Part shown: positions 5,120 to 23,265 of the stretch, piece by piece
Layout: each line of letters opens with the position of its first letter
Position numbering within the stretch: position 1 is the stretch's first letter
Origin: Ideonella livida
GTDB taxonomy: Bacteria; Pseudomonadota; Gammaproteobacteria; Burkholderiales; Burkholderiaceae_C
DNA: 64,000 bases
Assembly: GCF_010499455.1 (NCBI RefSeq)
Contig: NZ_JAAGOH010000005.1
Location: 124,001 to 188,000, forward strand
Direction: 5' to 3'
Made by a program: the position numbers and the translations under genes
Notes under the pieces: generated by a model
The model's database searches: none
What the model was told of the DNA's origin: nothing
Seen by the model: only the letters and a program-made list of their open reading frames with translations

Positions 5120-7441
5120 ATGTCCGCGTTCTTTCCGTCGTCGCCCGGCGGGTCCCGGAATCGTCGCCTTGCCGAGACGGCGCCGCGCCCGGCCGCCTGG
5201 CCCAATCAGGGCGACTCGACCCATGCCATGGTCATCAACCAGTCGCATGAGCGTTGCCAGGCTCTGGGACTTTCCCGGATCGAACGGCCCGACTTCTCGC
5301 CGCTGGGCCGCAGCGACCTCACCGTGGCCCGGGACCGCAACCAGCGGCTGTACTCGCACGCTGCGCCGGTGATGGAGATGCTCTACGAGCAGATCGTCAA
5401 CAGCGAGAGCATGGTGGTGCTGACCGACGCCACCGGCACCATCCTGCACTCCATTGGCGACGACGACTTCCTCTCGCGTGCCAACAAGGTGGCCCTCTCG
5501 CCGGGGGCCAACTGGTCGGAGGCGGCCAAGGGCACCAATGCGGTGGGCACGGCCCTCGTGGACGAAGTGCCCACGCTGGTCCATGCCGACGAGCACTTCA
5601 TGCACGCCAACCACTTCCTGACGTGCTCGGCGGCCCCCATCCTCGACCCGCGCGGCAACATCCTGGGTGTGCTGGATGTATCCGGCGACCAGCGCAGCTA
5701 CCACCAGCACACGATGGCGCTGGTGAAGATGTCGGCGCGGATGATCGAGAACCACTGGTTGAGCGACGACTACCGCAACGTCATGCGCCTGCACTTCCAC
5801 AGCCGGGTCGAGTTCATCGGCACGCTGATGGAAGGGATCCTGGCGGTGGCCCCCGACGGCAAGATCGTCGGCGCCAACCGTGGCGCCCTGGAACAGCTGG
5901 GCATGAGCGGTGCCGCCTTGCGCATGCACGCCCTGCCCTCGCTGTTCGGCGTGGCCATGGGCACGGTGGTCGACCGCTTCCGCTCGCCGCTGGCGGTGCC
6001 AATGCCGGTGCAGCTGTCGGACGGCCGCCAGTTCCACATCCAGGGCCGGTTCAATTCCCCCGTGTGGTCCAGCCCGGATGCCCCCGGGCGCGGCACCGAG
6101 TCGGGCTCGGGCCAGGTGGAGGAGGCCACCGTGCGCACGGCCTCCGGTGCAGGCCCCTCGGCAGAGACAGAAGGGGGCGCCGACGCCCGCCACGGTGCCA
6201 TGCCGGCGGTGCGCGCCGGGCTCAAGCAGCTGCAGACGGGCGACGCCCAGGTGGACACCGTCATCCAGAAAATCCGGCGGGTGCTCAACCGCGACATTCC
6301 CATCTTGGTGCTGGGTGAGACCGGCACCGGCAAAGAACTGCTGGCCCGCGCCATCCACCAGGATTCGGACCGTTCCCGTCAGCCCTTCGTGGCGGTGAAC
6401 TGCGCCTCCATCCCCGACACGCTGATCGAAGCCGAGCTGTTCGGCTATGAAGAGGGTGCGTTCACCGGCGCCCGCCGCAAGGGCGCGCCGGGCAAGATCG
6501 TCCAGGCCAATGGCGGCACGCTGTTCCTGGATGAGATCGGGGACATGCCGCTTCCCCTCCAAGCCCATCTGCTTCGGGTGCTGCAGGAGCGGCAGGTCAC
6601 CCCCCTGGGCAGCAACAAGTCGGTGTCGGTCGATGTGGCCATCATCTGCGCCACCCACCGCAACCTGCGCGAGATGATCGAGGCCAAGTCCTTCCGGGAG
6701 GACCTCTACTACCGCCTCAATGGGCTGGCCGTGCGTATCCCGTCGCTGCGCGAGCGCACCGACCTGATGGTGCTGGTGCAACGCATCCTGGACCGCCAGA
6801 CCACCGACCGCCGCCTGAGCCTGTCCTCCGAGGTGGTCAAGCTGTTCCAGCATTACCACTGGCCGGGCAATGTGCGTCAGCTCTTCAACGTGCTGCGCAC
6901 GGCCGCGGTGATGGCGGCCGGGGAGTCGGTCATCACCCGGGACCACCTGTCCGACGACTTCATCGAGGACGCGCTGCAGGCCGCACGCTCGCATGGTGAG
7001 GCGGCGGCCGCGCCGCACGCCGGGGCCGCCCCTGCACCGATGGAAGTCCACCTGCAGCAGGCCCAGGGCGGCCAGGCCTCCCTGGGGATGGGCGCTCCCA
7101 TGGGCGTCGGGCCGGTGGGCGGACTGCCCCACGCCGCACAGCCAGGCGGCCACCCGGGCGCCTTCGGCACCGGGTCGGGGTCGCCCTTCGTACACCCCTT
7201 CGCGCCGTCGGCCCCCACCGGCTACGGCCTTCCCGGTGGCTTCGGCACACCCGCCGGCAGCCAAGGCCCACGCGAAGCACCGATGGACACTGGACGCTCC
7301 CTGCAGGACATGGAGATCGAAGCCATCCGCCGGGCGGTCGAGGCGGCGGGCGGCAACATCTCCGAGGCGTCCAAGCGCCTGGGCATCAGCCGCAACACCA
7401 TCTACCGCAAGCTGCGCTGGCAGCAGGGCGGCACGGACTGA
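5120..7441 (+). CDS. AcoR-type sigma-54-dependent Fis-family activator
   Basis: A 773-residue enhancer-binding protein. Domains in order: GAF-like sensor (about 75-205), PAS-like (about 230-295), AAA+ (about 370-600) and a Fis-type helix-turn-helix (about 725-770). The AAA+ part has Walker A Gly-Glu-Thr-Gly-Thr-Gly-Lys-Glu (near 399), the sigma-54 contact loop Gly-Ala-Phe-Thr-Gly-Ala (near 446) and Walker B Leu-Phe-Leu-Asp-Glu-Ile (near 470), so it should remodel sigma-54 polymerase. It resembles AcoR regulators of acetoin or alcohol catabolism. It is longer than they usually are because of a roughly 100-residue Gly/Pro/Ala-rich linker (about 620-724) before the DNA-binding domain. The likely targets are the sigma-54 promoters at 4892-4907 and 8616-8631. 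The start is supported by AGGAG at 5107-5111. Confidence 0.93.
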   Translation: MSAFFPSSPGGSRNRRLAETAPRPAAWPNQGDSTHAMVINQSHERCQALGLSRIERPDFSPLGRSDLTVARDRNQRLYSHAAPVMEMLYEQIVNSESMVVLTDATGTILHSIGDDDFLSRANKVALSPGANWSEAAKGTNAVGTALVDEVPTLVHADEHFMHANHFLTCSAAPILDPRGNILGVLDVSGDQRSYHQHTMALVKMSARMIENHWLSDDYRNVMRLHFHSRVEFIGTLMEGILAVAPDGKIVGANRGALEQLGMSGAALRMHALPSLFGVAMGTVVDRFRSPLAVPMPVQLSDGRQFHIQGRFNSPVWSSPDAPGRGTESGSGQVEEATVRTASGAGPSAETEGGADARHGAMPAVRAGLKQLQTGDAQVDTVIQKIRRVLNRDIPILVLGETGTGKELLARAIHQDSDRSRQPFVAVNCASIPDTLIEAELFGYEEGAFTGARRKGAPGKIVQANGGTLFLDEIGDMPLPLQAHLLRVLQERQVTPLGSNKSVSVDVAIICATHRNLREMIEAKSFREDLYYRLNGLAVRIPSLRERTDLMVLVQRILDRQTTDRRLSLSSEVVKLFQHYHWPGNVRQLFNVLRTAAVMAAGESVITRDHLSDDFIEDALQAARSHGEAAAAPHAGAAPAPMEVHLQQAQGGQASLGMGAPMGVGPVGGLPHAAQPGGHPGAFGTGSGSPFVHPFAPSAPTGYGLPGGFGTPAGSQGPREAPMDTGRSLQDMEIEAIRRAVEAAGGNISEASKRLGISRNTIYRKLRWQQGGTD

Positions 7442-7462
7442 ACCCGCCCCTGCGGGAGCAGG

Positions 7463-8524
7463 TCACGGCCGGCTGGCACCGGAGGAGAACGACTCCGGCT
7501 CCAGCGCCTGCCAGACCCGCTGCCAGTTAAGGCCCGCGCGGCGGTGGCCCCCCCATGCCACCAGCGGAGGCGGCGGCGCTGGCGGCTCATCCGTCTCCAG
7601 CCGGCCTGCGGCCTGTTGGGCCCGCACCGCCTCGCCCAGCCACCGGCCGTAGTGCAGGTGCAGCGCCAGCAGCGCATCATCCGCCCAGGGGCCCTGCTCC
7701 GGCAGCCAGCGGGCGACCGGGGCCACACGCGTTCCGTCACGGTCCGCTTCCTGGCGCCAGGCCAGGAGGGCCTGCACCGAGGCTTGCCAGGTCTGCAGCT
7801 GAGCATCGCGGAGGTCCGGCGGGCCGCCGTCATGCCAGAGCAGGCCGGGCGCCGCCACCAGCCCCGTGCCCCACAGGTGCAGGGCCACCACCGGCAGGCC
7901 CTCGGCCCGGTAGAACCGGCGCCAACGCCAAGGCCCCCAGCGGCCGGACTCCCCCACCACCGCCACCTCAGGCAGCACGATGGGGGCTTCCCCCAGGTCG
8001 GCCTGTGCCGGCCCCAGGCGCTGGCGCAAGGTGGCCTCGCAATGCGGACACTGGCGCGCCATGCGCTCCCGGACCTCGGCGTGGGCCCAGAGCCGGGCCG
8101 CGGGCGTGCCACGCCAGCGCCGCTGCCAGCCTTGCAGGCCCAGGGCCTGTTCAGCCTGTGGCCAGGGTACCCAGACATCGGTCACCGTCCAGCCCCAACG
8201 GGTCTGCAGCTGGCAGTCCAGCGCCCGGGCCTGCGCCGGGCTGGGCCCGGCCCCCACCAGCCAGACCTGGCGCCCCTGGCGCACCAGCCACTGGTTGCGG
8301 GTACGTCCATGGTTGCCTGCATCGGGCTCACCCGGCAACCCCGGCAGCCACATCACCCCGGGCGCCACCACCTGCAGCGCCAGCGACGGCCCCGGACAAG
8401 CGGGAGCACCGGCCGCAGCCAGTCCGCACCAAAGGCCCAAGGCGGCGGCCAGCGGCCACCAGCGCCCGGGCCTGCCAGCCGCTACCGACAAACCCTGTGA
8501 CAGTTTGGAGCACCAAGCCGGCAC
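7463..8524 (-). CDS. degenerate metallo-beta-lactamase-like protein of the quinoprotein relay type
   Basis: A 353-residue predicted exported protein with a Trp/Ala/Leu-rich signal segment ending near Ala-Gly-Ala-Pro-Ala-Cys. The early part (Pro-Gly-Leu-Pro-Gly-Glu-Pro-Asp-Ala-Gly-Asn) and the following Val-Trp-Leu-Val-Gly-Ala-Gly-Pro strand resemble the quinoprotein-associated metallo-hydrolases found beside PQQ dehydrogenases. The catalytic His-x-His-x-Asp-His motif is not visible, and the expected position reads Val-Pro-Trp-Pro-Gln-Ala-Glu-Gln. There is a Cys-Pro-His-Cys pair in mid-protein. The GTG at 8524 is the best start before the signal peptide; no clear ribosome binding site was seen, so the start is uncertain. 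It converges with the activator gene and is divergent from the PqqB-like operon. Confidence 0.6.
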   Translation of the reverse strand: MPAWCSKLSQGLSVAAGRPGRWWPLAAALGLWCGLAAAGAPACPGPSLALQVVAPGVMWLPGLPGEPDAGNHGRTRNQWLVRQGRQVWLVGAGPSPAQARALDCQLQTRWGWTVTDVWVPWPQAEQALGLQGWQRRWRGTPAARLWAHAEVRERMARQCPHCEATLRQRLGPAQADLGEAPIVLPEVAVVGESGRWGPWRWRRFYRAEGLPVVALHLWGTGLVAAPGLLWHDGGPPDLRDAQLQTWQASVQALLAWRQEADRDGTRVAPVARWLPEQGPWADDALLALHLHYGRWLGEAVRAQQAAGRLETDEPPAPPPPLVAWGGHRRAGLNWQRVWQALEPESFSSGASRP

Positions 8525-8811: not shown

Positions 8812-9627
8812 ATGAAACTGGTGGTGCTGCGTGGCAGCCAGCCGCATGATGCCCAGACGGCCCAGGCCCCTGTCCGCCACCGTCGCCCCCCCACCCGAGA
8901 CCCCGCACCCACCGGACAGCTGGGCGCCATCGCCCTGTCGGATGCCGGGGAGCAGTGGTCTCTGCTCAACGTCTCACCGGCCGTGGCGCAGCAGCTGCTG
9001 GAAGACCCCGGGCTCTCAGAACACGCCGGCCTGGGGGATGCCGAGGTCCGCAGCATCATCCTGACCGACGCGCAGATCGACCATGTAACCGGCCTGCTGA
9101 GCCTGCGCGACGGCGCACCCATCAGCCTGTACTGCACGCCCGCGGTGTTTGAGGTGCTGAGCCAACGCATGCCCGTGCTGCAGGTGCTGCAGCGCTACTG
9201 CGGCGTGCACTGGCATGTGATCCCGGTGGCAGGCGAAGCGTGGTCGGCCAGCTTCCGGGTGGAGACCCTGCCGGCGCTGGAGTTCACCGCCTTCGCCACC
9301 GACGCCCTGCCCCTGCCCTACCCGCTGGAGCCCGGCACGCCCACCTCCACCGGCCTGTCCATCGCCCTGGCCGTGCGTGACCTGCGCACAGGGCAGCGGC
9401 TGTTTCTGGCACAGGGCGGACAGAGCCTGGGACCGACCGAGCTGGACTGGCTACGCGGCGCCGACTGCGTGATGGTGGACGACCGCACCACCTGGCCCGA
9501 TGATCCGGAGGGTGTGCCCTGGCGGGCACACCGCAAGGTGCTGCTGCAAGGTGGCATCGGGCCGGAGACCCCGGCCCGTCCCGCCGGTTTTGAGCCGGCC
9601 TATGACGGCATGGTGATCACCCTGTGA
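8812..9627 (+). CDS. PqqB-like metallo-hydrolase-fold protein
   Basis: A 271-residue protein similar to PqqB, the metallo-beta-lactamase-fold enzyme of pyrroloquinoline quinone biosynthesis. Shared features are the Leu-Leu-Asn-Val-Ser-Pro strand, the Leu-Thr-Asp-Ala-Gln-Ile-Asp-His segment (residues 84-91) followed by Gly-Leu-Leu-x-Leu-Arg, the Tyr-Cys-Gly-Val-His-Trp-His motif, and the C-terminal Ala-Tyr-Asp-Gly-Met. It is shorter than PqqB (usually about 300). It lacks the Cys-rich N-terminal Asn-Cys-Asn-Cys segment and the His-Ile-Asn-Asn-Thr-Asn-Pro motif, which is replaced by Gln-Gly-Gly-Ile-Gly-Pro. It may be a paralogue with a changed role. TGGAGGA at 8801-8807 supports the start; the stop overlaps the next gene by 4 bases. 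Confidence 0.75.
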   Translation: MKLVVLRGSQPHDAQTAQAPVRHRRPPTRDPAPTGQLGAIALSDAGEQWSLLNVSPAVAQQLLEDPGLSEHAGLGDAEVRSIILTDAQIDHVTGLLSLRDGAPISLYCTPAVFEVLSQRMPVLQVLQRYCGVHWHVIPVAGEAWSASFRVETLPALEFTAFATDALPLPYPLEPGTPTSTGLSIALAVRDLRTGQRLFLAQGGQSLGPTELDWLRGADCVMVDDRTTWPDDPEGVPWRAHRKVLLQGGIGPETPARPAGFEPAYDGMVITL

Positions 9628-10361
9628 ACGCTTCCCCAGCCACGCCCGCGTTGCAGTTGCAAGGCCTGGTCAAGCGCTACGGCGCCCGCACCGCGCTTGA
9701 TGGTCTGACACTCGGCCTGCCGGCCGGCCAGTGTGTGGCCCTGCTGGGCCCCAACGGCGCGGGCAAGTCCACCTTGTTCCAGGTGTTGACCGGTCTGTTT
9801 GTGGCCGACGCAGGCGAGGTGGAGGTGGCAGGCCACTGCCTGCGGCGGCACGCGGTGCGTGCACTGGCCCACATCGGCGTGGTCTTCCAGCAGATGTCGC
9901 TGGACCTGGACCTGACCGTGAGGCGCAACCTGCAGTTCCATGCCGATCTGCACGGCCTGCCACGTGCCTTGGCTGCAGAGCGCATGGCCCAGGGCTGCGC
10001 CGCGCTGGGCACCGCGCCCGACCTGGACCGCACGGTGCGCGAGCTCTCCGGCGGCAACCGCCGCAAGGTGGAGCTGGTGCGTGCCCTGCTCCACCACCCC
10101 GCCGTGCTGCTGATGGACGAGCCCACGGTGGGCCTGGACCCGCGCAGCCGGCGCGACCTGCTCGCCGCTGTGCGCGCCGATGTGCAGACGCGCGGCAGCA
10201 CTGTGCTGTGGGCCACCCACCTCGTGGAAGAGGCCGAAGCCGCCGACCGGGTGCTGGTGTTGCACCGTGGCCGCCTGCTGGCCGACGGCAGCCCGGCGGC
10301 GGTCAGCGCTCAACTGGGTGGCCCCGACCTGGAAAGCGGCTTCATCGCCGCGACCACATGA
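9624..10361 (+). CDS. ABC transporter ATP-binding protein, PQQ-alcohol dehydrogenase system
   Basis: A 245-residue cytoplasmic ATPase. Walker A Gly-Pro-Asn-Gly-Ala-Gly-Lys-Ser-Thr (near 41-49), signature Leu-Ser-Gly-Gly-Asn (near 140), Walker B Leu-Leu-Met-Asp-Glu-Pro (near 163) and the switch His in Trp-Ala-Thr-His-Leu are all intact. Sequence type and neighbours match the ABC-2 exporter found with PQQ-dependent alcohol dehydrogenases. The GTG start overlaps the stop of the PqqB-like gene; the cognate permease is at 12739-13560. Confidence 0.9.
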   Translation: MNASPATPALQLQGLVKRYGARTALDGLTLGLPAGQCVALLGPNGAGKSTLFQVLTGLFVADAGEVEVAGHCLRRHAVRALAHIGVVFQQMSLDLDLTVRRNLQFHADLHGLPRALAAERMAQGCAALGTAPDLDRTVRELSGGNRRKVELVRALLHHPAVLLMDEPTVGLDPRSRRDLLAAVRADVQTRGSTVLWATHLVEEAEAADRVLVLHRGRLLADGSPAAVSAQLGGPDLESGFIAATT

Positions 10362-10449
10362 CCCACAGGCCCACCTGAGAAGCGGCGAAGGACCGCCAGA
10401 GTCCCGCCCCCCAGCCCCCCCCCCAGCCCCGTCCCAGGAGACAAACCCC

Positions 10450-11520
10450 GTGATCCAGAACTCTGTCCACGCCCCGGTACCGCACGCCACAGCCGCCACC
10501 GCCTGCCGCACCGCGCCTGCCCCGTGCCCGTCACAGTCCAAGTGGACCGGCCGGTGGGTAGGCCAGGTCGGCGCGCTGCTGCTGGGCACGCTGACCGCCG
10601 CGGCCGCACAAGCCGGCCCCGTCGCCTGGGTCAGCAGCGAGAAGGACGCCGCCCTGACCCTGGTGGACCTGGACACCCTGGCCGTGACCGGCACGGTGGC
10701 CACCTGCAAACGTCCGCGCCACATGCGCCTCACGCCAGACGGTCGGCAACTGATGGTCGCTTGCGGCGACTCACAGCAGGCCGACGTCATCGACCTGGCC
10801 AGCCGCAAGTCGGTGGGTCGGGTACCGCTGGGCGATGATCCCGAGATCTTCGACCTGAGCCCCGATGGCAAAACCCTCTATGTGAGCAACGAGGAGGACG
10901 CCGAGGTGGGCGTGGTGGACGTGGCCACCGGCAAGCGCAAGGGCGCGTTCAAGGTCGGCGAGGAGCCCGAGGGTGTGCTGGTCTCGCCCGACGGCAAGAC
11001 GGTCTATGTCACCTCCGAGGTCGCCAGCCTGATCCATGTCATCGACGCGGCCACCGGCAAGGTGGTCAAGAACGTCAAGGTGGGCAAGCGGCCACGGCGC
11101 TTGGCCCTGACCCCCGACGGCAGCCAGCTCTGGGTGAGCAACGAGCTGGGGGCCAGCGTGAGCATCCTGAACACCAAGGACCATGCGGTGATCGACACCC
11201 TGAAGTTCAAGGTCAAGGGTGCGCGCGACGCCGACATCACCCCGGTGGGCCTGACCATCAGCGCCGACGGCAAGCGTGCCTACGTGGGCCTGGGCCGCGC
11301 CAACCACGTTGCCTTTGTGGACGTGGCCACCCGGCAGGTGACCGACCTGGTGCTCACCGGCAAGCGGGCCTGGGGCGTGGGGCTGAACAAGGCCCAGAAC
11401 CGGTTGCTGGTGGTCAACGGCCTGTCCGATGATCTGACCGTGGTGGACACCCAGGCGGCCAAGGCGCTCAAGACAGTGCCGGTGGGTCGGGTGCCGCACA
11501 GCGTGGTGGTGGTGGAGTGA
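10450..11520 (+). CDS. PQQ-dependent catabolism-associated beta-propeller protein
   Basis: A 356-residue predicted periplasmic protein with a long Ala/Thr-rich leader and a hydrophobic segment ending near Ala-Ala-Ala-Ala-Gln-Ala-Gly. The rest consists of YVTN-type beta-propeller blades with repeats such as Pro-Asp-Gly-Lys-Thr-Leu-Tyr-Val-Ser-Asn and Val-Val-Asp-Val-Ala-Thr-Gly-Lys. Such propellers regularly accompany the ABC transporter of PQQ alcohol dehydrogenase clusters; their biochemical role is unknown. The GTG at 10450 is preceded by CAGGAGACA. A run of ten C lies at 10415-10424, upstream of the start. The stop overlaps the next gene by 4 bases. Confidence 0.88.
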   Translation: MIQNSVHAPVPHATAATACRTAPAPCPSQSKWTGRWVGQVGALLLGTLTAAAAQAGPVAWVSSEKDAALTLVDLDTLAVTGTVATCKRPRHMRLTPDGRQLMVACGDSQQADVIDLASRKSVGRVPLGDDPEIFDLSPDGKTLYVSNEEDAEVGVVDVATGKRKGAFKVGEEPEGVLVSPDGKTVYVTSEVASLIHVIDAATGKVVKNVKVGKRPRRLALTPDGSQLWVSNELGASVSILNTKDHAVIDTLKFKVKGARDADITPVGLTISADGKRAYVGLGRANHVAFVDVATRQVTDLVLTGKRAWGVGLNKAQNRLLVVNGLSDDLTVVDTQAAKALKTVPVGRVPHSVVVVE

Positions 11521-12680
11521 GCCCCCTGGTGCGCGCCCCGGCGCTGACCCTGCTGGCCCTGCTGGGCGTGGGTGCCCAGGCGGCCGCCTTCAAAGCCGTG
11601 CTGCTGGTGCCTCAGGACGACCCCCGCCTGGAACGCGCCCGGGTGGAACGGGCCTACCTGGGCCACCCCACGGGCCCGGCCACCGAGGCCGTGGCGGTGG
11701 CGCTGAAGGAGGCCCGGCTGGAACTGGAAGCCGTCGGCGCCAGCCTGACCGTGGACACGGTGCCCGTGGGCGACGCCGCGGCCGCACGCGCTGCCGCCCA
11801 GAAGGCCGAGAAGGCTGGGGCGGTGGCCCTGCTGGCCGACCTGCCGGCCGACACGCTGCTGGCCGCCGTCGATGCCGTGCGCCTGCCGGTGCTCAACCTG
11901 AGTGCAGCCGACGACCGGCTGCGTGGGCCCGACTGCCGGGCGCACCTGCTGCATGTGGCGCCGTCTGAGCGCATGCGCGCCGACGCGCTGGCCCAGACCC
12001 TGGTGGCGCGCAAGTGGTCCCAGGTGCTGCTGCTCACCGGGCCCGGGCCGCAGGACACGACCCGCAGCGCGGCGGCCCAGGCGGCCCTCAAACGCTACGG
12101 ACTGAAGCTGGCGGGCGCCAAGCCCTACAAGCTCTCGGCCGACCCGCGTGAGCGCGAGCTGGCCAACCCCCTGCTCCTGACCCAGGGCAGCCACGATGTG
12201 GTCTGGGTGGTGGACAGCGACGGCGAATTTGCCCGCACCTTGCCCTACCGCACCGCCACCCCGCGGCCGGTGGTGGGTGACGCGGGCTTGGTGGCCCTGG
12301 CCTGGCATGCGCAATACGAGCGCTTTGGCGCGCCGCAGGTCTCCCGCCGGCTGTGGCGCCAGGCCAGCCGCCCGGCCACGGCCCAGGACTGGCAGGCCTG
12401 GCTGGGCGCCAAGGCACTGGCGGCCGCGGTGGTGGCCGCCCCCAAAGGACCGGCCACCGCCGTTCAGCAAGCCCTGATGGCCGGCGAACTGGACGGCTCC
12501 AAGGGCGTGCCCATGACCTTCCGCCCCTGGGACGGCCAGCTGCGCCAGCCCTTGCTGCTGACCGACGGCCAGGGCGTCATCGGCACTGCGCCGGTGGACG
12601 GCGTGCTGCACCCCCGCAACCACCTCGACACCCTGGGCGCAGACGCGCCGGAGAAGCTGTGCAAGGCCCGACCCGCATGA
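11517..12680 (+). CDS. ABC transporter substrate-binding protein, PQQ-dependent alcohol dehydrogenase system
   Basis: A 387-residue periplasmic protein with a short signal peptide (Leu-Leu-Ala-Leu-Leu-Gly-Val-Gly-Ala-Gln-Ala-Ala) and a branched-chain amino-acid-receptor-like two-lobed fold. It contains the segments Val-Leu-Leu-Val-Pro-Gln-Asp-Asp-Pro-Arg, Val-Leu-Asn-Leu-Ser-Ala-Ala-Asp-Asp-Arg-Leu-Arg and Val-Trp-Val-Val-Asp-Ser-Asp-Gly-Glu-Phe. These match the binding-protein family unique to PQQ-linked ABC systems. The GTG start overlaps the propeller gene stop (GTGA), supporting translational coupling. Confidence 0.87.
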   Translation: MSPLVRAPALTLLALLGVGAQAAAFKAVLLVPQDDPRLERARVERAYLGHPTGPATEAVAVALKEARLELEAVGASLTVDTVPVGDAAAARAAAQKAEKAGAVALLADLPADTLLAAVDAVRLPVLNLSAADDRLRGPDCRAHLLHVAPSERMRADALAQTLVARKWSQVLLLTGPGPQDTTRSAAAQAALKRYGLKLAGAKPYKLSADPRERELANPLLLTQGSHDVVWVVDSDGEFARTLPYRTATPRPVVGDAGLVALAWHAQYERFGAPQVSRRLWRQASRPATAQDWQAWLGAKALAAAVVAAPKGPATAVQQALMAGELDGSKGVPMTFRPWDGQLRQPLLLTDGQGVIGTAPVDGVLHPRNHLDTLGADAPEKLCKARPA

Positions 12681-12738: not shown

Positions 12739-13560
12739 ATGAAGCACGCTTTGCAGGCTTGGTGGGCCATCGTGCAGCGCGAGCTGCTCAAGTTCTCCCG
12801 CCAGACCGGACGCCTGGTCTCGGCCCTGGTGCGCCCTCTGCTATGGCTGGCGGTATTTGCCGCCGGCTTTCGCAACGTCTTCGGCATGGCCATTGCCGAG
12901 CCCTACGACACCTACATCCCCTACGACCTCTACATCGCGCCCGGCCTGGTAGGCATGGTGCTGCTGTTCAACGGCATGCAGTCCAGCCTGGCCATGGTCT
13001 ACGACCGCGAGATGGGCCTGATGCGGCTGCTGCTGACCGCCCCGCTGCCGCGCTGGTGGATCCTGGCGGCCAAGCTCAGCGCCACCGCTGTGCTCTCCTT
13101 GCTGCAGGCCGCCGCGTTCCTGGCCGTGGCCGCCGCGCTGGGCACGGTGTTGCCGCTGTGGGGCCCGCACACGCCGCATGTGCTGCTGGCGGCCGTCTGC
13201 ATGGCCCTGATGCTGGGGGCGCTGGGTCTTTTGCTGAGCGTGTACGTGCAGCAGCTGGAGAACTTCGCCGGCACGATGAACTTCGTCATCTTCCCGATGT
13301 ACTTCATGTCCACGGCGCTGTATCCACTGTGGAAGCTCGAGGAGTCCGGCGCGGCCTGGGTGTGGTGGATCGCGCGCTTCAACCCCTTTACCCATGCCGT
13401 GGAGTGGCTGCGTTACGCGCTCTACGACAAGGACCCCGGCCTGGCCCCCTGGGTGGTGGTGGGCACCGGCCTGCTGTGCTTTGGGCTGGCCGCCTGGGGC
13501 TACGACCCGCAACGCGGCTTCGGCGCCCTCACCCGCCGCGGCCCGGGGGGCGCACCATGA
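12739..13560 (+). CDS. ABC-2 type transporter permease of the PQQ-linked system
   Basis: A 273-residue inner-membrane protein with about six hydrophobic segments: 33-53, 77-97, 111-137, 146-170, 178-196 and 244-262. It shows the ABC-2 permease layout, including Arg-Glu-x-x-Lys-Phe-x-Arg near the N-terminus and the Asn-Pro-Phe-Thr-His-Ala-Val-Glu motif near 215. It pairs with the ATPase at 9624-10361. ATPase-type ABC-2 pairs are exporters, so this system probably moves something out of the cytoplasm; the substrate is not evident. The next gene starts inside its stop codon. Confidence 0.9.
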   Translation: MKHALQAWWAIVQRELLKFSRQTGRLVSALVRPLLWLAVFAAGFRNVFGMAIAEPYDTYIPYDLYIAPGLVGMVLLFNGMQSSLAMVYDREMGLMRLLLTAPLPRWWILAAKLSATAVLSLLQAAAFLAVAAALGTVLPLWGPHTPHVLLAAVCMALMLGALGLLLSVYVQQLENFAGTMNFVIFPMYFMSTALYPLWKLEESGAAWVWWIARFNPFTHAVEWLRYALYDKDPGLAPWVVVGTGLLCFGLAAWGYDPQRGFGALTRRGPGGAP

Positions 13561-14330
13561 GCGGTCGGCCCTTCCCCCCTGACGCCGCGCGGTGGCTGCC
13601 CGGGCTGGGCAGCCGGCGTGGCGGTGCCCAGTCGGACCGGCCTTCCCAGGTCGAGCCCCTGTGGCTGGAGTGGCTGGCCCTGGGCGGCCTGCTGACCTTC
13701 GGCGCCTGGCTGCTGGGCGTCAAGGGCGTGTGGCACCTGCTGCTCACCTCCGACCCCACCGGTCTGACCGGCGTGATCATCCTGGTCTTTCTGGGCGCCA
13801 CCTTCTGGGCGGGCAGCCGCAGCCGTGAACTGCAGCGCCAGCACTTGGCACTGCAGGCCCTCACCCGGCAGGAGGCCCACGCCCCCTTGCCCGCCGAGGG
13901 CGGCGGCTGGGCGGCGCAGTACCTGCACGCCCTGTCGGCACAGCCCCAGGACGCCAATGCCCCGCTGGACCTGCTGCTGGAGGACAGCCACGGCCCCCAC
14001 CAGACCGCCTGGTGGGTCAATGGCATCCAGCTCAAGCTGGGTCTGCTGGGCAAGGTCATCGGCTTTTCGGTACTGGCCCTGCACATCGGCCAACTGCAGA
14101 GCTTCGATCCGGCCCAGTCACAGGAACTGCTCAAGAGCCTGACCGCTGGCCTGGGCATCGCCCTGCTGACCACCATGGTCGGGCTGGTGGGCAACATCCT
14201 GCTGGGTCTGCAACTGACCCGCCTGGACCGCTTTGCCGACCGTCTGGTGGCCGACTGCCAGCGGGAAGGCCTGCGGCGACAGGCCCAACACGCCGCGGCG
14301 CCCCCTGGCGGTACGGCCCCGCAGGCCTGA
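13557..14330 (+). CDS. MotA/TolQ/ExbB-like proton channel protein in the PQQ operon
   Basis: A 257-residue membrane protein. Predicted segments are about 33-56, 64-85, 157-180 and 194-219. The third contains Leu-Gly-Leu-Leu-Gly-Lys-Val-Ile-Gly-Phe and the fourth Gly-Ile-Ala-Leu-Leu-Thr-Thr-Met-Val-Gly-Leu-Val-Gly-Asn. These correspond to the Leu-Gly-Leu-Leu-Gly-Thr-Val and Ala-Leu-x-Thr-Thr-x-x-Gly-Leu motifs of ExbB/TolQ. It overlaps the ABC permease stop by 4 bases, and an ExbD/MotB-like gene follows after 15 bases, so I infer a stator-type proton channel. It is clearly distinct from the TolQ at 1189-1878. Family assignment is likely; function is unknown. Confidence 0.75.
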   Translation: MSGRPFPPDAARWLPGLGSRRGGAQSDRPSQVEPLWLEWLALGGLLTFGAWLLGVKGVWHLLLTSDPTGLTGVIILVFLGATFWAGSRSRELQRQHLALQALTRQEAHAPLPAEGGGWAAQYLHALSAQPQDANAPLDLLLEDSHGPHQTAWWVNGIQLKLGLLGKVIGFSVLALHIGQLQSFDPAQSQELLKSLTAGLGIALLTTMVGLVGNILLGLQLTRLDRFADRLVADCQREGLRRQAQHAAAPPGGTAPQA

Positions 14331-14345
14331 CGCCGGGCCCCCGCC

Positions 14346-14951
14346 ATGCCCAGCCGCCGCCACGCCCGCGAACCGGAGGTCGACCCGTTCTACGACATGT
14401 TGTTCAACATGTTGATTGCCTTCGTCTTCTGTTTCATCGTGGCCCTGCTGGCGATGAACCCCAAGGCCCTGAAGACCGGAGACATCCCCGCCAAGGCCGA
14501 GTTCATCATCACCGTGACCTGGCCCGACATGAACCCCAACGACATCGACACCTGGGTGCAGGATCCCGGTGGCAACCTGGTGTGGTTTCGCGCCCGCGAG
14601 GCCGGCCTGATGCACCTGGACCGCGACGACCGCGGCCTGTCCAACGACAGCATCGTGGTCAACGGCCACCACGTGGTGAACCCGTTGAACCAGGAGGTGG
14701 TCACCCTGCGGGGCATCGCCGCCGGGGAGTACACCGTCAACGCCCACTACTACGACGCCAAGGACGGCCAGCCCGTCGAGGTGTCGGTGTCCATCGTCAA
14801 GGTCAATCCCCGGGCGGAAGTGGTCTATTACGGCCAGGTCACCTTGGCCCGCAAGGGGGATGAGGCCACCGCCGCCCGCTTCACCGTGCTGCCAGACGGC
14901 AGCGTGGGCCAGGTGAGCACCCTGCCCAAGACCCTGGTGCAACGCCAATGA
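14346..14951 (+). CDS. ExbD/MotB-like single-pass protein with an uncharacterised periplasmic domain
   Basis: A 201-residue protein with a short Arg-rich start, then Asp13-Pro-Phe-Tyr-Asp17-Met leading straight into one membrane segment (about 18-40). An Asp at the cytoplasmic side of a single segment is the hallmark of ExbD, TolR and MotB. The rest is a beta-rich periplasmic domain with Trp-Pro-Asp-Met-Asn-Pro-Asn-Asp-Ile-Asp-Thr-Trp-Val and a Leu-Asp-Arg-Asp-Asp-Arg-Gly-Leu turn. It shows neither an ExbD dimerisation domain nor an OmpA-type peptidoglycan-binding domain that I recognise. It is the likely partner of the channel-like protein upstream. Confidence 0.65.
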   Translation: MPSRRHAREPEVDPFYDMLFNMLIAFVFCFIVALLAMNPKALKTGDIPAKAEFIITVTWPDMNPNDIDTWVQDPGGNLVWFRAREAGLMHLDRDDRGLSNDSIVVNGHHVVNPLNQEVVTLRGIAAGEYTVNAHYYDAKDGQPVEVSVSIVKVNPRAEVVYYGQVTLARKGDEATAARFTVLPDGSVGQVSTLPKTLVQRQ

Positions 14952-15003
14952 GCCTTCAGCCCACCCGCCAAGCACAGCGGGCGCGCCCCACCGGACCCCT
15001 GAC

Positions 15004-15498
15004 ATGACCACCGCCATCGTCCTCTCCTTCTGCGCCCTGCTGCTGCTGCTCACCCTGGCCCTGCTGTGGTCGAGGTGGCCCGCCTGGCTCAAAACCATGC
15101 TGGTGGTCGCTGTGGCAGGCTTCTACTTCGTGGCCGACGACACGGTGCACCAGATGTGGGGGTGGCCGGCGGCCGACCCGCTGCCCGAGCGCTTCGTCCT
15201 GCTGGCTGCGGTCATCGAGGAGCCCAGCCAGAAAACGCCAGGGGCCCTGTACGTCTGGGTCAACGCGCTGGAAGACGGCAAGCCTGCCGCCCAGCCGCGG
15301 GCCTACCGCCTGCCCTATGCCAAGGACCTGCACGCCCTGCTCAACGAGGGCATCAAGAAGAGCCGCCAAGGCGTCACCCAGATGGGCACGGCCGAACCCA
15401 AGCGGGGCAAGAAGGGCCTGGGCTGGCTGCGCCCGGGCAGCGATGAGCAGGAGGTCAAGATCCGTGACCTGCCCGCGCCGCAATTGCCGGAGAAGTGA
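15004..15498 (+). CDS. uncharacterised two-pass membrane protein of the PQQ/stator operon
   Basis: A 164-residue protein with two hydrophobic segments (about 4-22 and 28-46), then a roughly 115-residue soluble part ending in a Lys/Arg/Gly-rich stretch and a Pro/Leu tail. Within it are Gly-Ala-Leu-Tyr-Val-Trp-Val-Asn-Ala-Leu and Arg-Ala-Tyr-Arg-Leu-Pro-Tyr. I do not recognise a family. Position (52 bases after the ExbD-like gene, 2 bases before a lipoprotein gene) makes it a probable part of the same envelope machine. Confidence 0.7.
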   Translation: MTTAIVLSFCALLLLLTLALLWSRWPAWLKTMLVVAVAGFYFVADDTVHQMWGWPAADPLPERFVLLAAVIEEPSQKTPGALYVWVNALEDGKPAAQPRAYRLPYAKDLHALLNEGIKKSRQGVTQMGTAEPKRGKKGLGWLRPGSDEQEVKIRDLPAPQLPEK

Positions 15499-15500
15499 AC

Positions 15501-16277
15501 ATGGCGGCAACAGCAGCGATGGCAGCCCCCGGACGCCCGGCCGGGGCGCGCCTGCAGGGGGCCCTGCGGGTGGGGCGGAGGGTGGGCATGGCCGGGGCCA
15601 CGTTGGTCGTCGGCCTGAGCGCCTGCTCGCCTCCGCCGGGCGATGAGCTCTTTCCCCTGGGGCAGGGGCGCCACTGGACCTACCGGCAGGTCACCACTTG
15701 GGAGAACGACACCGTGGAGACCGACACGGTGGAGATCTCCGGCCATGGCAGCGAGCTGCTGGAGGACGGACAACGCGCCTTCCGCCGCCGCAGCGCCAGC
15801 GGCATGACCTACTGGCTGCGCAGCGACGAGACCGGCGTGTACCGGGTGGCGTCCAAATCCGACGTGGAGGCCGAGCCCCAGCCCGACAAGCCGGTGCGCT
15901 TTGTGCTCAAGGCCCCCATCGCCGCAGGCACGAGTTGGCAGGCCACCACCACGGCCTATCTGCTGCGGCGGCGCCAGGAATTCCCCCGGGAGATCCGCCA
16001 CAGCCATCCCCGCATCCCCATGAACTACATCATCGAGGCGCTGGGCGAGACGGTGGACACCCCGGCCGGCCGCTTCAGCGCTTGCGTGCGGGTCAAGGGA
16101 AGCGCCCAGCTCAAACTCTTTGCCGACCCCGTGGTGGGCTGGAAGGACATGCCGCTGACCACCCTGGAGTGGTACTGCCCTGGCGTGGGCCTGGCCAAGC
16201 TGCAACGGACGGAGCCCGCCAACTCCACCTTCCTTGAAGGCGGCACCGTGACCCTGGAGCTTACCGATTACCGGTGA
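15501..16277 (+). CDS. uncharacterised lipoprotein at the end of the PQQ/stator operon
   Basis: A 258-residue protein with an Arg-rich N-terminus, a hydrophobic stretch and the lipobox Gly-Leu-Ser-Ala-Cys near residue 43. The mature part begins Phe-Pro-Leu-Gly-Gln-Gly-Arg-His-Trp-Thr-Tyr, typical of beta-rich lipoproteins that often carry a lipid- or ligand-binding fold. It contains Asp-Thr-Pro-Ala-Gly-Arg-Phe-Ser-Ala-Cys and a final Trp-Tyr-Cys-Pro-Gly-Val-Gly-Leu segment. A GTG six bases earlier is also in frame; I prefer the ATG at 15501. It follows the previous gene after 2 bases. Confidence 0.75.
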   Translation: MAATAAMAAPGRPAGARLQGALRVGRRVGMAGATLVVGLSACSPPPGDELFPLGQGRHWTYRQVTTWENDTVETDTVEISGHGSELLEDGQRAFRRRSASGMTYWLRSDETGVYRVASKSDVEAEPQPDKPVRFVLKAPIAAGTSWQATTTAYLLRRRQEFPREIRHSHPRIPMNYIIEALGETVDTPAGRFSACVRVKGSAQLKLFADPVVGWKDMPLTTLEWYCPGVGLAKLQRTEPANSTFLEGGTVTLELTDYR

Positions 16278-18562: not shown

Positions 18563-19216
18563 TCAGGCCACCTCCAGCCCGTGCTCGCGGGCGTAGCGCA
18601 ACAGCTCCACGGCCGTGCTCACCCCGAGCTTCTGGCGGATGGCCGTCTGGTAGTTAGCCACGGTCTTGAGCGACAGGCTCATGCGCTGCGACACCTCTTC
18701 CACCGTGAGGCCCTGCAACAGGTAGCGCAGCACATCAAACTCACGAGAGGACAGCTGCCGATGGGGCGCCTGAGCCGACTGGTCCGCCGCCAGCTGTTCG
18801 CTCAAGCCCGACGCCAGGTAGCGCCGGCCCTGGGCCACCTCGCGCACCGCGTGGATCAGCTCCTCGGGCTCGCTGCTCTTGCCCACAAAGCCATCGGCCC
18901 CCGCCTTGAGGGCCTGGTCCACCATGGCCGGGCTGTCGTGCATGCTGAAGACCAGCACCTTCAAGCCTTCCCACCGCGCCTGGACCCGGCGCAGCAAGTC
19001 CAGGCCACTGCGGCCCGGCATCGACAGGTCCAGCACCATCACATCCACGCCCGGGCCCTCCTGGCCCTGGGCAGCAGCCTGCAGGCCGCGGTACGCGTCA
19101 TCGGCATCCGCATGCTCGCCCACCACCTTGAGGTCAGGCTCCAGCTCCAGCAGGCGACGGTAGCCGGTGCGCACGACGGCATGGTCATCCACCAGAAGAA
19201 CGCGGGTTGTCTGCAT
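18563..19216 (-). CDS. NarL/UvrY-type LuxR-family response regulator
   Basis: A 217-residue response regulator. The receiver domain has Asp10-Asp11, phospho-acceptor Asp63 in Val-Leu-Asp-Leu-Ser-Met-Pro-Gly and a conserved Lys in Val-Gly-Lys-Ser. The C-terminal LuxR helix-turn-helix (about 150-210) carries Leu-Ser-Ser-Arg-Glu-Phe-Asp-Val-Leu-Arg and Lys-Thr-Val-Ala-Asn-Tyr. It overlaps the end of the histidine kinase gene by 32 bases and is surely its partner. Position beside a TonB-dependent receptor and the PQQ cluster suggests it controls one of them, which is inference. Confidence 0.95.
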   Translation of the reverse strand: MQTTRVLLVDDHAVVRTGYRRLLELEPDLKVVGEHADADDAYRGLQAAAQGQEGPGVDVMVLDLSMPGRSGLDLLRRVQARWEGLKVLVFSMHDSPAMVDQALKAGADGFVGKSSEPEELIHAVREVAQGRRYLASGLSEQLAADQSAQAPHRQLSSREFDVLRYLLQGLTVEEVSQRMSLSLKTVANYQTAIRQKLGVSTAVELLRYAREHGLEVA

Positions 19217-20813
19217 GGTCTGCGGTGTCCTCGAGAGCAGTCGGGTCGGGCCCGGGGGCGACCATGATGCCACTGGCAGGCAGGTCGAAGCTGGCCCGCA
19301 GGCACAAGCCGCAGGGCGGCTCGGTGGGTCGCGGGCCGCAGGCCAGCTCAGCCCCATGCGACCAGATGCGCGACTGGATGCCCGCCAGGCCGCTGCCCCG
19401 TCTGCGGGCTCCGTCCGGATCCGCCAGACCCACACCATCGTCACAGACCTGCCAGTCCAGGCGCCCGCCCTCGCCGTGGGCATCCGCCGTCCAGCCCAGA
19501 AACAGACGGGCATGGCGGGCCTGTGCATGGCGGGCCACATTGGTCAACGCCTCCTGGCTCATGCGGTAGAGGCTCAAGGCCAGCTCCGGCGACAGGCCGC
19601 GGGGGTGGCAGTCGGGCCAATCCGCCTGGCGCCCCAGCGCATCGCGCACCTCCACGCAAAACTCGAACTGCGTGGGCAGGCCCGCGCTGGCCTGCCACCC
19701 CTTGACCAGACCGGCGAGCGCCGGCACCAATTCCAGGGCGGGCACATGGCCCTCGTCCAGCGGCAGGGGACGCAGGCGCTGCAGCAGGTCTCGCACCGTG
19801 GCCTGCAGGCCTGACAGCCGCTGCCCCAGGGACTCGACCACCTCCGCCAAATCCTGCAGCCCCTCGCGCCCCTTCACCCGGGAGCGCACCCAGGCCAGGT
19901 CCACCCGCAGACCGGTGAGCTGCTGGCCCAGCTCGTCATGCAGCTCTGCTGCCACACGCTGGCGTTCGTCCTCCTGCAGGCTGGCCACTTGGCGTGCCGT
20001 GCGCTGACGCTCCAGATCATGACTGCGCAAGGCCTGCTCCAGGTGCTGCAGCACCGAAGCCAGCATGGCCAGCTCGGAGCCGGCCAGTCGAGGCCAGGCC
20101 CGCTCCGGCACCGGCGCGCCGCGGGCGATGAGTCTCACCACCTTCATCAGCCGCTGCAGGGGTTCCAGCGCCAGCTGGCTGTTGAGGTGCAGCAGGGCGA
20201 GCAGCCCCATGCCGAACACCAGGCCCACGCCCAACTGGAACAGCAGGTCGTGCAAGGCCTCGTGGCGCTCCGCGGCCGGATTGGGCCTCAGGGTCACGGA
20301 CCAGACCCGGCCGTTCTCCCGCGGCAGCGACCAGCTCACCGCCTGCACAGGCGAACGCTCCATCCAGTCCAGCACGGGACTGAGCGCCGGCAGCATCCAC
20401 AAGGAGACCAAGTCGGCATGGTCGTGCCTGGTGCCTGCAGGCGGGGTGTCAATAAGGGGACGTCCGGAGTCGTCATGCACCAGCAGCGTCAAATGCCTCA
20501 GCTCTTCCTGTGACACCCATGCGCCAAGTCGTGACAGGGCCTGCTGGTCATCCATGAGGTGCATGGCGGAGACGAGTGCCGCAAACCGGGCCAGGCTCTC
20601 GGCCGAGGACACCTCCTCATCCACCCGGTCACCCGCGCGCAGCAAGCCGCCAAGCAGCGCCACCACCAGTCCGGCCAGTAGGAGAAACCAGGCCCGGCGC
20701 AGCAAGGACCTGCGCAAGTCCAGGCCGGGGGCGAACCAGCTTCGCACGGACCACCAGAGTCTCAGGCCTTGGCGGGACAGGGCAGAAGCCAGGGGAGCGT
20801 CCTGTGATGACAT
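19185..20813 (-). CDS. NarX-type sensor histidine kinase
   Basis: A 542-residue inner-membrane kinase. It has TM1 (about 41-58), a 130-residue periplasmic sensor with no family I recognise, TM2 (about 193-210), then a HAMP-like and coiled linker. The HisKA_3 dimerisation box carries His292 in Ala-Ala-Glu-Leu-His-Asp-Glu-Leu-Gly-Gln. The ATPase domain has the N-box Gln-Glu-Ala-Leu-Thr-Asn-Val-Ala-Arg-His and the Asp-Asp-Gly-Val-Gly loop. About 35 extra residues follow the kinase domain and overlap the regulator start. It is transcribed divergently from the TonB-dependent receptor. Confidence 0.93.
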   Translation of the reverse strand: MSSQDAPLASALSRQGLRLWWSVRSWFAPGLDLRRSLLRRAWFLLLAGLVVALLGGLLRAGDRVDEEVSSAESLARFAALVSAMHLMDDQQALSRLGAWVSQEELRHLTLLVHDDSGRPLIDTPPAGTRHDHADLVSLWMLPALSPVLDWMERSPVQAVSWSLPRENGRVWSVTLRPNPAAERHEALHDLLFQLGVGLVFGMGLLALLHLNSQLALEPLQRLMKVVRLIARGAPVPERAWPRLAGSELAMLASVLQHLEQALRSHDLERQRTARQVASLQEDERQRVAAELHDELGQQLTGLRVDLAWVRSRVKGREGLQDLAEVVESLGQRLSGLQATVRDLLQRLRPLPLDEGHVPALELVPALAGLVKGWQASAGLPTQFEFCVEVRDALGRQADWPDCHPRGLSPELALSLYRMSQEALTNVARHAQARHARLFLGWTADAHGEGGRLDWQVCDDGVGLADPDGARRRGSGLAGIQSRIWSHGAELACGPRPTEPPCGLCLRASFDLPASGIMVAPGPDPTALEDTADHADNPRSSGG

Positions 20814-20895: not shown

Positions 20896-23265
20896 ATGAA
20901 GTCCGGAGACCCCTTTTCCATGCGCCCCGTCCGATCCCTGCAGAGTCCCCGCCACCTCACCGGCAGGTCCGCCCCGCACAGCCCCCCTCCCACCTGGCAC
21001 CTCTTCCACCAGGCCTGGCGGCTGCTCCCTCCTGCACTGGGCCTGGCCTTGACCGCCTCCTTCAGCCACGCCCAGGCCACCACCGCGCAGGTGGAGGTGG
21101 TGGGCGTCAGCCCGCTGCCCGGCCAGGGGGTCCCGCGTGACCAGCTGCCCTACACCACGCATGTGCTGCGGCGTGGCGACATCCAGCAGGCCCAGGCCGA
21201 CACCACCACCGAGCTGCTGGCACGTCGCGTGCCGGGCCTGCAGGTCAACGACATCCAGGGCAGCACCTTCCAGGGTGACCTGACTTTCCGCGGCCACCGG
21301 GCCTCCGGCCTTTTGGGGGCCTCCCAAGGCCTGAGCGTGTACCTCGACGGGGTGCGCATCAACGAAGCCTTTGGCGACGTGGTGAACTGGGACCTGGTCC
21401 CCGAGGGCGCCCTCGACAGCATCAGCCTGGTGTCGGCCGCCAACCCCGCCTTCGGCCTGAACACACTGGCCGGCGCCATCTCGCTGCAGACCGCCTCGGG
21501 CCTGACCCGGCCCGGCACGGAGGCAGAGTTGGAGTGGGGAGCCTTCGGGCGCAAGCAACTGACCGTCGGCCAGGGCGGCCGGCACGCAGAAGGCTGGCAC
21601 CACCGGCTGAGCGTGCGCGGCCTGGAGGAGGACGGCTGGCGCGACCATTCCGGCAGCCGCGTCCACCAGCTGCATGCCCGGGTGGGGCGCGAGACGGCAC
21701 GGGGAGACTTCAGCGCCAGCCTGCTGTTGGCACGCACCCGGCTGGTGGGCAATGGCCTGGTGCCCTGGGCCACCCTGGCAGAGGATGGCCAGACCACGCC
21801 CGCCCTGGGCCAGGACCGCCGCACCGCGGTCTACACCCACCCGGATGAGACCCGCCACCGCCTTCAGCAGCTGGGCCTGCAGTGGTCCCGCACACTGGAG
21901 GATGGCCAGCAGCTGCAGGCCCTGGCCTATGTGCGCCACAGCCGGCGCGACACGGTCAATGGTGATGTGGCCGAGGAGGAGGAAGGCGGCGGGGCGGACG
22001 CCGCGCTCAACCAGACCACCAGCCGGCAGCGGGGCCAGGGTCTGGCCTTCAACTGGTCGGGCCGCAGCGGTGAGCACCAGTGGTCCTGGGGCGCCAGCTT
22101 CGACCACGCCCGCGTGGACTTCCGCCAGGGCGAAACCGAAGCCGCATTCAACGACAGCCGCGGCGTGGTCGCGTTGCCGGGCGCCGAGCAGGCGCTGAGC
22201 GCCACGGTCGCCGGCAGCAGCCGGCTGTGGGGCCTGCACGCCACCGACACCTGGCGGCTGTCACCGGCCAGCCACCTCACCGTGGGCCTGCGCGCCAACC
22301 ACGCCACCGTCGGCAACACCTTGGCCAGCGAAGATGATGACACCGGCGAATTTGAGGCCCATCCCCATGAGCGCTTCACCTACCGCAGCCTCAACCCGGC
22401 CCTGGGCCTGACCCACCGGCTGGGCGCCAGCGCCCCCACTCTTTTTGGCAGCGTGGCGCGCAACACCCGCGTGCCCACCGTCATCGAGCTGGGCTGCGCC
22501 GACCCCCAGGAGCCCTGCCGCCTGCCCGCCGGCCTGCAGTCCGACCCCTACCTCAGGCAAGTGCGCGCCACCACGCTGGAAGGCGGCCTGCGCTGGGGCC
22601 ACCCCACCCGCCAGGGCGGCAGCCTGACCCTGTTCCAGACCGACAACCGCGATGACATCGTGTTTGGCAGCGTGAGCCTGAACGGTCAGCTGGGCTACTT
22701 CCAGAACTTCGACCGCACCCGCCATCGCGGACTGGAACTGAGCCAGAGCCTGCCCTGGGCAGGTGCGCAGTGGTCCGCCAGCCTGAGCTGGCTGCGGGCG
22801 ACCTACGAAGCCCAGGGCGTGCTGCGCATGGGCGAGCGCAATGTGCAGGTGGCGCCCGGCACCCGCATGGCCGGCCTGCCCGAACGCATGGCCAAGGTGG
22901 GGGCCGACTGGACGCTGGGGGGCGGCTGGCTGCTGGGGGCCGATGTGCAGGCGGTCTCCTCGCGCCAGGTGGCAGGCAATGAGGACGGCCGGCTGGAGGA
23001 CGACGCCGAGGAAACCGTCTGGCTGAAGGTGCCTGGGCACGCCCTGCTGCACCTGCGCGCCAGCTGGCAGCCGGCGAACTGGCCGGGGGTGCAGTGGCTG
23101 GTACGGCTGAACAACGCCACCAACCGCCACACCGCGAGCTTTGGTGCCCTGGCCGAAACCCGCTTTGACCGTGACGGCCAGCTGATGCCAGAGGGCCGGG
23201 AAGCGTTGTTCCTGGCCCCGGGGGCCCCACGGGCGCTCAGCCTGGGCCTGCGTGCCCGTTTCTGA
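20896..23265 (+). CDS. TonB-dependent outer-membrane receptor
   Basis: A 789-residue receptor. The signal peptide ends near Phe-Ser-His-Ala-Gln-Ala. The plug domain contains Leu-Leu-Ala-Arg-Arg-Val-Pro-Gly-Leu-Gln-Val-Asn-Asp and Val-Tyr-Leu-Asp-Gly-Val-Arg-Ile-Asn-Glu; the barrel ends in Leu-Gly-Leu-Arg-Ala-Arg-Phe with the terminal Phe signature. A loop with Gly-Cys-Ala-Asp-Pro-Gln-Glu-Pro-Cys-Arg-Leu-Pro recalls receptors placed near lanthanide- or PQQ-dependent alcohol oxidation genes (LutH-like). The ligand is inferred from context only. In-frame ATGs are at 20896 and 20920; the second gives a more typical signal peptide. It is divergent from the histidine kinase gene. Confidence 0.92.
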   Translation: MKSGDPFSMRPVRSLQSPRHLTGRSAPHSPPPTWHLFHQAWRLLPPALGLALTASFSHAQATTAQVEVVGVSPLPGQGVPRDQLPYTTHVLRRGDIQQAQADTTTELLARRVPGLQVNDIQGSTFQGDLTFRGHRASGLLGASQGLSVYLDGVRINEAFGDVVNWDLVPEGALDSISLVSAANPAFGLNTLAGAISLQTASGLTRPGTEAELEWGAFGRKQLTVGQGGRHAEGWHHRLSVRGLEEDGWRDHSGSRVHQLHARVGRETARGDFSASLLLARTRLVGNGLVPWATLAEDGQTTPALGQDRRTAVYTHPDETRHRLQQLGLQWSRTLEDGQQLQALAYVRHSRRDTVNGDVAEEEEGGGADAALNQTTSRQRGQGLAFNWSGRSGEHQWSWGASFDHARVDFRQGETEAAFNDSRGVVALPGAEQALSATVAGSSRLWGLHATDTWRLSPASHLTVGLRANHATVGNTLASEDDDTGEFEAHPHERFTYRSLNPALGLTHRLGASAPTLFGSVARNTRVPTVIELGCADPQEPCRLPAGLQSDPYLRQVRATTLEGGLRWGHPTRQGGSLTLFQTDNRDDIVFGSVSLNGQLGYFQNFDRTRHRGLELSQSLPWAGAQWSASLSWLRATYEAQGVLRMGERNVQVAPGTRMAGLPERMAKVGADWTLGGGWLLGADVQAVSSRQVAGNEDGRLEDDAEETVWLKVPGHALLHLRASWQPANWPGVQWLVRLNNATNRHTASFGALAETRFDRDGQLMPEGREALFLAPGAPRALSLGLRARF

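Follow-up and report, generated by a model that had tools for sequence, protein, structure and literature searches.

What is a channel protein of the MotA/TolQ/ExbB type doing at the end of an operon linked to pyrroloquinoline quinone (PQQ)? The question is raised by a 64,000-nucleotide stretch of Ideonella livida DNA (contig NZ_JAAGOH010000005.1, positions 124,001 to 188,000; hereafter the window), whose parent assembly totals 5.26 Mb, is split into 104 contigs, and is 99% complete. Three consecutive genes, here called A, B, and C, encode the channel-type protein, a single-span protein, and a two-span protein. A preliminary description had treated the first two as a stator-like pair coupled to a PQQ-associated ATP-binding cassette (ABC) exporter. 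The genes are conserved as a trio and not as a pair: A, B, and C are all present in 232 of 240 loci, always in that order, on one strand, and within 6 kb, with the C homolog as the third operon gene. Our preferred reading, which we hold with modest confidence and consider slightly favored, is that the three proteins form a conserved inner-membrane complex in which A supplies a channel ring, B an axle, and C a partner, together performing ion-driven work in the periplasm.

Composition and conservation of the trio

The 240 loci represent 219 distinct B sequences, 211 of which lie in a complete trio. They include 24 loci from relatives, 80 from a genome_contigs scan, 40 from a class sample, eight further loci, two from Azospirillum, 80 viral loci (IMG/VR), and five from Rhizobium phages; five of the relatives' loci repeat five genome_contigs loci. 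Similarity to the window protein decided which loci were kept from the genome_contigs scan (the top 80 of at least 449) and from the viral scan (the top 80 of 213, with 65 distinct B), and the class sample comprises 20 loci that we chose from each of two class scans, among 60 and 40 matching genomes. Three profiles (A5, A6, and A9) were built partly from loci later counted, so that presence counts lean upward. Among the incomplete trios, the match adjoins a contig end in five (L088, L119, L135, L198, and L238), a C-like gene was recognized by eye in L034, and no C was found in L248. The 17 kb stretch L320 has two tandem B-like genes (7018–8254), with A and C undetected.

By sequence, A can be assigned to the known MotA/TolQ/ExbB channel family, as the preliminary description had proposed. 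Residues 161–234 of the window protein match Pfam MotA_ExbB (PF01618) at E 3.3e-4 and 20.8 bits, just missing the curated cutoff of 22.9, and 41 of 42 family members scanned singly match at E ≤ 0.01 (best 4.2e-10). Alignment with three TolQ/ExbB proteins of the same genome using hhalign gave E 8.9e-5 and a probability of 59.6% across the last two spans. Hydropathy indicates four hydrophobic regions in window A. Thr206, in the last span, occurs in 234 of the 235 sequences and is presumably the channel Thr of the family. Window A has Lys at the position corresponding to what we take to be ExbB's other channel Thr; of 151 bacterial sequences, 82 have Lys there and 67 have Thr, and of 84 phage sequences, 81 have Thr. 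Median A length is 171 amino acids in the IMG/VR loci versus 228 in the genome_contigs loci, and three phage proteins examined have 138, 148, and 175. The genome holds ten MotA_ExbB matches, one of which (window 1420–1809) lies in tol genes that had correctly been set apart as a separate system.

The AlphaFold2 model of B (mean predicted local distance difference test score, pLDDT, 86.6) has one long helix (residues 14–37) with Asp17 near its start, followed by strands and one short helix, in agreement with the single-pass topology and beta-rich periplasmic domain described earlier. Asp17 is present in 227 of 240 B sequences; one has a gap and 12 carry another residue, 11 of which have an Asp four residues earlier. 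It is lost in Bradyrhizobium-like loci (genus guessed). The predicted head resembles the TerD fold; ExbD is missing from the same list of fold matches, an absence that excludes nothing. Sequence similarity to TerD was not detected, with no PF02342 profile match for window B and an hhalign E of 0.23 against 28 TerD sequences. Neither ExbD nor OmpA is listed for window B in a Pfam scan with E up to 10. For 78 B sequences, hhalign against only three ExbD/TolR proteins of the same genome gave E 0.098, and the best 25 of 32 Pfam families contained no OmpA-type domain. By profile, the domain of B is neither ExbD nor OmpA; the notion of an undescribed stator-like pair beside PQQ genes is supported. 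Four acidic residues in the head (D66, D68, D94, and D95) are invariant.

In the AlphaFold2 model of C (pLDDT, 88.1), two helices (2–22 and 27–51) precede a beta-beta-beta-alpha-beta-beta domain, and no OmpA-type domain appears in the Pfam families listed for it. The stop of gene C is overlapped by the start of a fourth gene, absent from the preliminary description, that encodes a predicted lipoprotein with the lipobox LSAC (by eye) and a weak match to DUF3108_like (E 0.0023, below cutoff). This gene accompanies the trio in Burkholderiales, with homologs nearby in 23 of 24 relatives, 78 of 80 genome_contigs loci, 11 of 40 class-sample loci, and one of eight further loci; none was found near the two Azospirillum or the 85 phage trios.

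Distribution and genomic neighborhoods

The trio is spread across bacteria and phages. Scans found B in 25 of 199 relatives and, in a sample of 398 genomes of the phylum, in 19 (16 of them strong matches); it also occurs in 40 of 369 genomes of the window's own class and in 60 of 385 genomes of the class of genome G307. The best named match in the genome_contigs scan, with 86% identity in B, was Rubrivivax pictus (now Pseudaquabacterium pictum, Sphaerotilaceae), from which we place the window genome in Burkholderiales close to Rubrivivax and Piscinibacter. A PmoA/AmoA-family gene was present in one (G1125) of 22 trio genomes tested, and 26 of 36 genomes of that organism's family carry B. Eight B matches (L263, L264, L265, L283, L284, L285, L294, and L295) contain one in-frame stop (TAA, TAG, or TGA), which might reflect sequencing error, decay, or recoding.

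The arrangement in the window was confirmed on the forward strand (Table 1). Gene A starts at an in-frame ATG at 13557, within a longer mechanical open reading frame (ORF; 12759–14330), and this ATG overlaps the TGA (13558–13560) of the upstream permease; 15 bases separate A from B, and the two-pass protein follows. Upstream lie genes with matches to PQQ/Ped families, above the cutoff for TIGR03864, TIGR03866, and TIGR03861 and below it for TIGR03863. NCBIfam names the permease family "alcohol ABC transporter." The exporter that had been suggested is improbable: by family, the genes are PedA1A2BC-like, and PMC12997753 reports that system to be a lanthanide importer in Pseudomonas putida.

Table 1. 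Positions of the trio and surrounding genes in the window
Feature	Position	Strand	Description
Subunit A	13557..14330	+	257 aa; MotA/TolQ/ExbB-like channel protein; conserved Gly near 162–165, Thr206
Subunit B	14346..14951	+	201 aa; single span; membrane-edge Asp17; predicted periplasmic beta sandwich resembling TerD
Subunit C	15004..15498	+	164 aa; two spans; predicted periplasmic bbb-a-bb domain; PQLPEK-type C-terminal tail
Predicted lipoprotein, DUF3108-like (weak)	15495..16277	+	Fourth gene in Burkholderiales and some others
PedC-type ABC-2 permease (context)	12739..13560	+	TIGR03861, 350.4 bits, above cutoff
PQQ-associated ABC substrate-binding protein (context)	11517..12680	+	TIGR03863, E 1.6e-107, 359.5 bits, below cutoff of 413.6
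PQQ-associated beta-propeller protein (context)	10387..11520	+	TIGR03866, 321.3 bits, above cutoff; start chosen by us within ORF 10180–11520
PQQ-associated ABC ATPase (context)	9624..10361	+	TIGR03864, 315.7 bits, above cutoff
PqqB-like metallo-beta-lactamase-fold protein (context)	8812..9627	+	TIGR02108, 137.6 bits, below cutoff of 245; start chosen by us
NarL-type response regulator (context)	18563..19216	-	Name and start assigned by eye from translation
Histidine kinase (context)	19185..20813	-	Name assigned by eye from translation
TonB-dependent-receptor-like protein (context)	20896..23265	+	Name assigned by eye

How closely the trio is tied to PQQ genes depends on the set. Flank lengths vary and flank genes were called crudely by us, so that all neighbor counts are lower bounds. 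As far as flanks are available, PQQ-core or Ped genes lie beside the trio in 22 of 24 relatives and 72 of 80 genome_contigs loci (88 of 98 when these Burkholderiales-rich sets are merged by distinct B), in 15 of 40 class-sample loci, and in one of eight further loci, but in none of the two Azospirillum, 80 viral, and five Rhizobium-phage loci. Co-occurrence with PQQ and ABC genes therefore stands for the former two sets and fails in phages and in 25 class-sample loci. Nor must the trio be coupled to the ABC genes: it is missing from 11 of the 22 relatives whose PedC scores above cutoff, and five of 16 trio genomes lack PedC above cutoff (same 120 genomes). PedC is cut by a contig end in one of those five (G015), and trio and PedC lie on different contigs in G061. 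Because PedC-bearing relatives without the trio are common and settings vary, we regard the trio as a portable module that PQQ clusters have often taken up, and not as a constant component of the ABC transporter.

Other neighbors recur unevenly. Homologs of the window response regulator lie near the trio in 9/24 relatives, 19/80 genome_contigs, 5/8 further, and 2/40 class-sample loci; the corresponding counts are 7/24, 8/80, 0/8, and 0/40 for the histidine kinase and 12/24, 17/80, 0/8, and 0/40 for the TonB-dependent-receptor-like protein, possibly the metal receptor of the cluster. The kinase and response regulator beside the trio in all five Bradyrhizobium-like loci (L243–L247) are homologous to those near Burkholderiales trios. 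A second bacterial setting appears in the class sample, with L,D-transpeptidase-like (nine loci), DUF302-like (nine), and VWA-like (eight) genes, named by eye. Its loci are L331, L333, L334, L336, L337, L341, L342, L344, and L345, most with the VWA-like gene; L341, L342, L344, and L345 have C twice and a B with Ala at position 17.

The viral setting is real, since isolate phages join viral stretches with phage-type neighbors. In INPHARED, B occurs in 27 records, all Rhizobium or Sinorhizobium phages (some are GenBank/RefSeq pairs) and including the temperate phage 16-3, in which the locus (L354 4247–7135) corresponds to p036–p042, with p038, p040, and p042 as A, B, and C. B also occurs in 213 metagenomic viral stretches, the best 80 of which lie on contigs of up to 527 kb, with terminase-like and Hsp20-like genes (by eye) among the neighbors. 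A trypsin-like protease gene lies 5' of the trio in small Rhizobium phages (L354, L355, L356, and L357) and in the prophage-like L249. Homing-endonuclease-type genes sit between trio genes in several Rhizobium phages (L355 4243–5001, L356 5544–6086, and, by eye, L357 4252–4989).

A possible mechanism and competing explanations

In the proposed complex, A would form a MotA/ExbB-type channel ring around B, an axle that crosses the membrane once, carries an Asp at the membrane edge, and ends in a periplasmic head of TerD-like predicted fold. Ions passing Asp17 and Thr206 would shift or turn B, and the heads together with C would perform work in the periplasm; C, with its two spans, periplasmic domain, and conserved C-terminal tail, probably receives or anchors the movement. 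We arrive at an ion-driven periplasmic transducer because of the channel family to which A belongs and the conservation of the Asp and the Thr; we further infer a single complex of three, its stoichiometry, and metal binding by the four invariant acidic residues. In the window, this module would have been taken up by a PQQ cluster for alcohol oxidation, the enzymes of which depend on Ca2+ or a lanthanide. The likeliest task for the window trio, offered tentatively, is to help handle or load Ca2+ or lanthanide in the periplasm; a TerD-like head with invariant acidic residues would fit a metal-linked role. PMC12997753 reports PedS2-PedR2 as lanthanide responsive, PedH as requiring lanthanide, and PedE as Ca dependent. 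In Methylomicrobium alcaliphilum, PMC6277846 reports two MotA/TolQ/ExbB genes lower with La than with Ca, along with the Ca-dependent enzyme; MEALZ_3990/3991 of strain 20Z are candidates for A and B of the trio.

An envelope-integrity motor like Tol-Pal is an unlikely but credible competitor. Ion flow would then keep or remodel the envelope, C or the lipoprotein would act toward the outer membrane, and phages would use the trio to manage the host envelope during infection. The second setting with its L,D-transpeptidase-like, DUF302-like, and VWA-like genes speaks for such a motor, as do the fourth-gene lipoprotein of Burkholderiales, the endolysin-like and holin-like ORFs (by eye) beside the trio in a prophage-like locus, and the protease gene ahead of it in small Rhizobium phages. 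PQQ dehydrogenases also yield aldehydes and acids, which counts in its favor. However, homologs of that protease lie near the trio in just nine of 80 IMG/VR loci, the lipoprotein is missing from the phage loci, and the Pfam families inspected offered an OmpA-type domain for neither B nor C.

The TerD-like head might instead sense metal or stress and open A, making the trio a gated channel or sensor that signals to the neighboring kinase or changes membrane potential. The kinase and regulator of the five Bradyrhizobium-like loci, which have lost Asp17, are compatible with this, as are a kinase and a regulator near 8 and 9 of 24 relatives and 11 and 19 of 80 genome_contigs loci and the very short phage A proteins. 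Yet kinase or regulator homologs accompany none of the 85 phage and only two of the 40 class-sample loci, and C is left without a role; we consider this explanation improbable. Least probable is the earlier proposal of a dedicated partner for the PQQ-linked ABC transporter. The start/stop overlap with the permease suggests it, and a Ped-type permease flanks 15/24 relatives, 25/80 genome_contigs, and 6/40 class-sample loci, but none was found in the flanks of the remaining loci or of the 85 phage loci, and half of the PedC-bearing relatives do without the trio.

If the ion-driven complex is correct, the small set of ion-driven 5:2 motors would gain a class that has a novel type of periplasmic head and, as a rule, a third partner, and viruses would carry such motors. 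That large and temperate phages possess their own minimal but complete motor, ion driven, acting in the periplasm, and of an unrecognized class (A often of 110–180 amino acids, a TerD-headed axle, and a third subunit), the first viral 5:2-type stator, while bacteria use the same module for PQQ metal handling and other envelope tasks, is a serious possibility that we place somewhat below even. For structural work, the short proteins of phages could offer the simplest members, and the trio is a testable candidate for Ca2+/lanthanide handling around PQQ dehydrogenases.

Relation to known systems

The closest comparison is with the 5:2 proton motors ExbB-ExbD and TolQ-TolR. The trio shares with them a PF01618 protein with its channel region, an adjacent gene whose product has a single N-terminal span, and an Asp at the membrane edge; it differs in that B matches no ExbD/TolR profile and has a predicted TerD-like head, that the two-span gene follows, and that neither TonB nor TolA is recognized in it. 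With MotA-MotB, it shares the four hydrophobic regions of window A and an Asp at the span of B, whereas the OmpA-type domain was not matched. MotA has a large cytoplasmic torque domain. The similarity to Zorya is confined to gene 1: scans of the four proteins gave weak ZorA matches to A alone (E 0.0075 to 0.06), no ZorB match for B, and, for genes 2–4, no PADLOC match at E ≤ 1. The TerD family is approached by B only in predicted fold; B lacks sequence similarity to it, is membrane anchored, and lies beside a stator-like protein. TerD genes and a calcium P-type ATPase are reported in huge gut phages (PMC12363816), which fits a phage interest in such domains, yet concerns another system.

Our literature searches found no description of the trio, and it was not seen in the available portions of a 5:2 review (PMC9389320) or a force-transducer paper (PMC12204202). 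The generic ion transporters of PMC12505986 are likewise nonflagellar pairs of A and B, many of them with additional domains and of unknown function, although the domains named in the accessible text, DUF3450 and DUF2341, are on A subunits; a text search of that source returned neither TerD nor PQQ, and "phage" three times, the one instance viewed being phage defense. The window neighbors match the families of the Pseudomonas lanthanide system PedA1A2BC, but the text of PMC12997753, as far as available, mentions neither ExbB nor MotA, and the trio is therefore apparently not part of the cluster described there. Set against these systems, the family of A is already known; new to us are the head of B, the regular presence of C, and the distribution among viruses.
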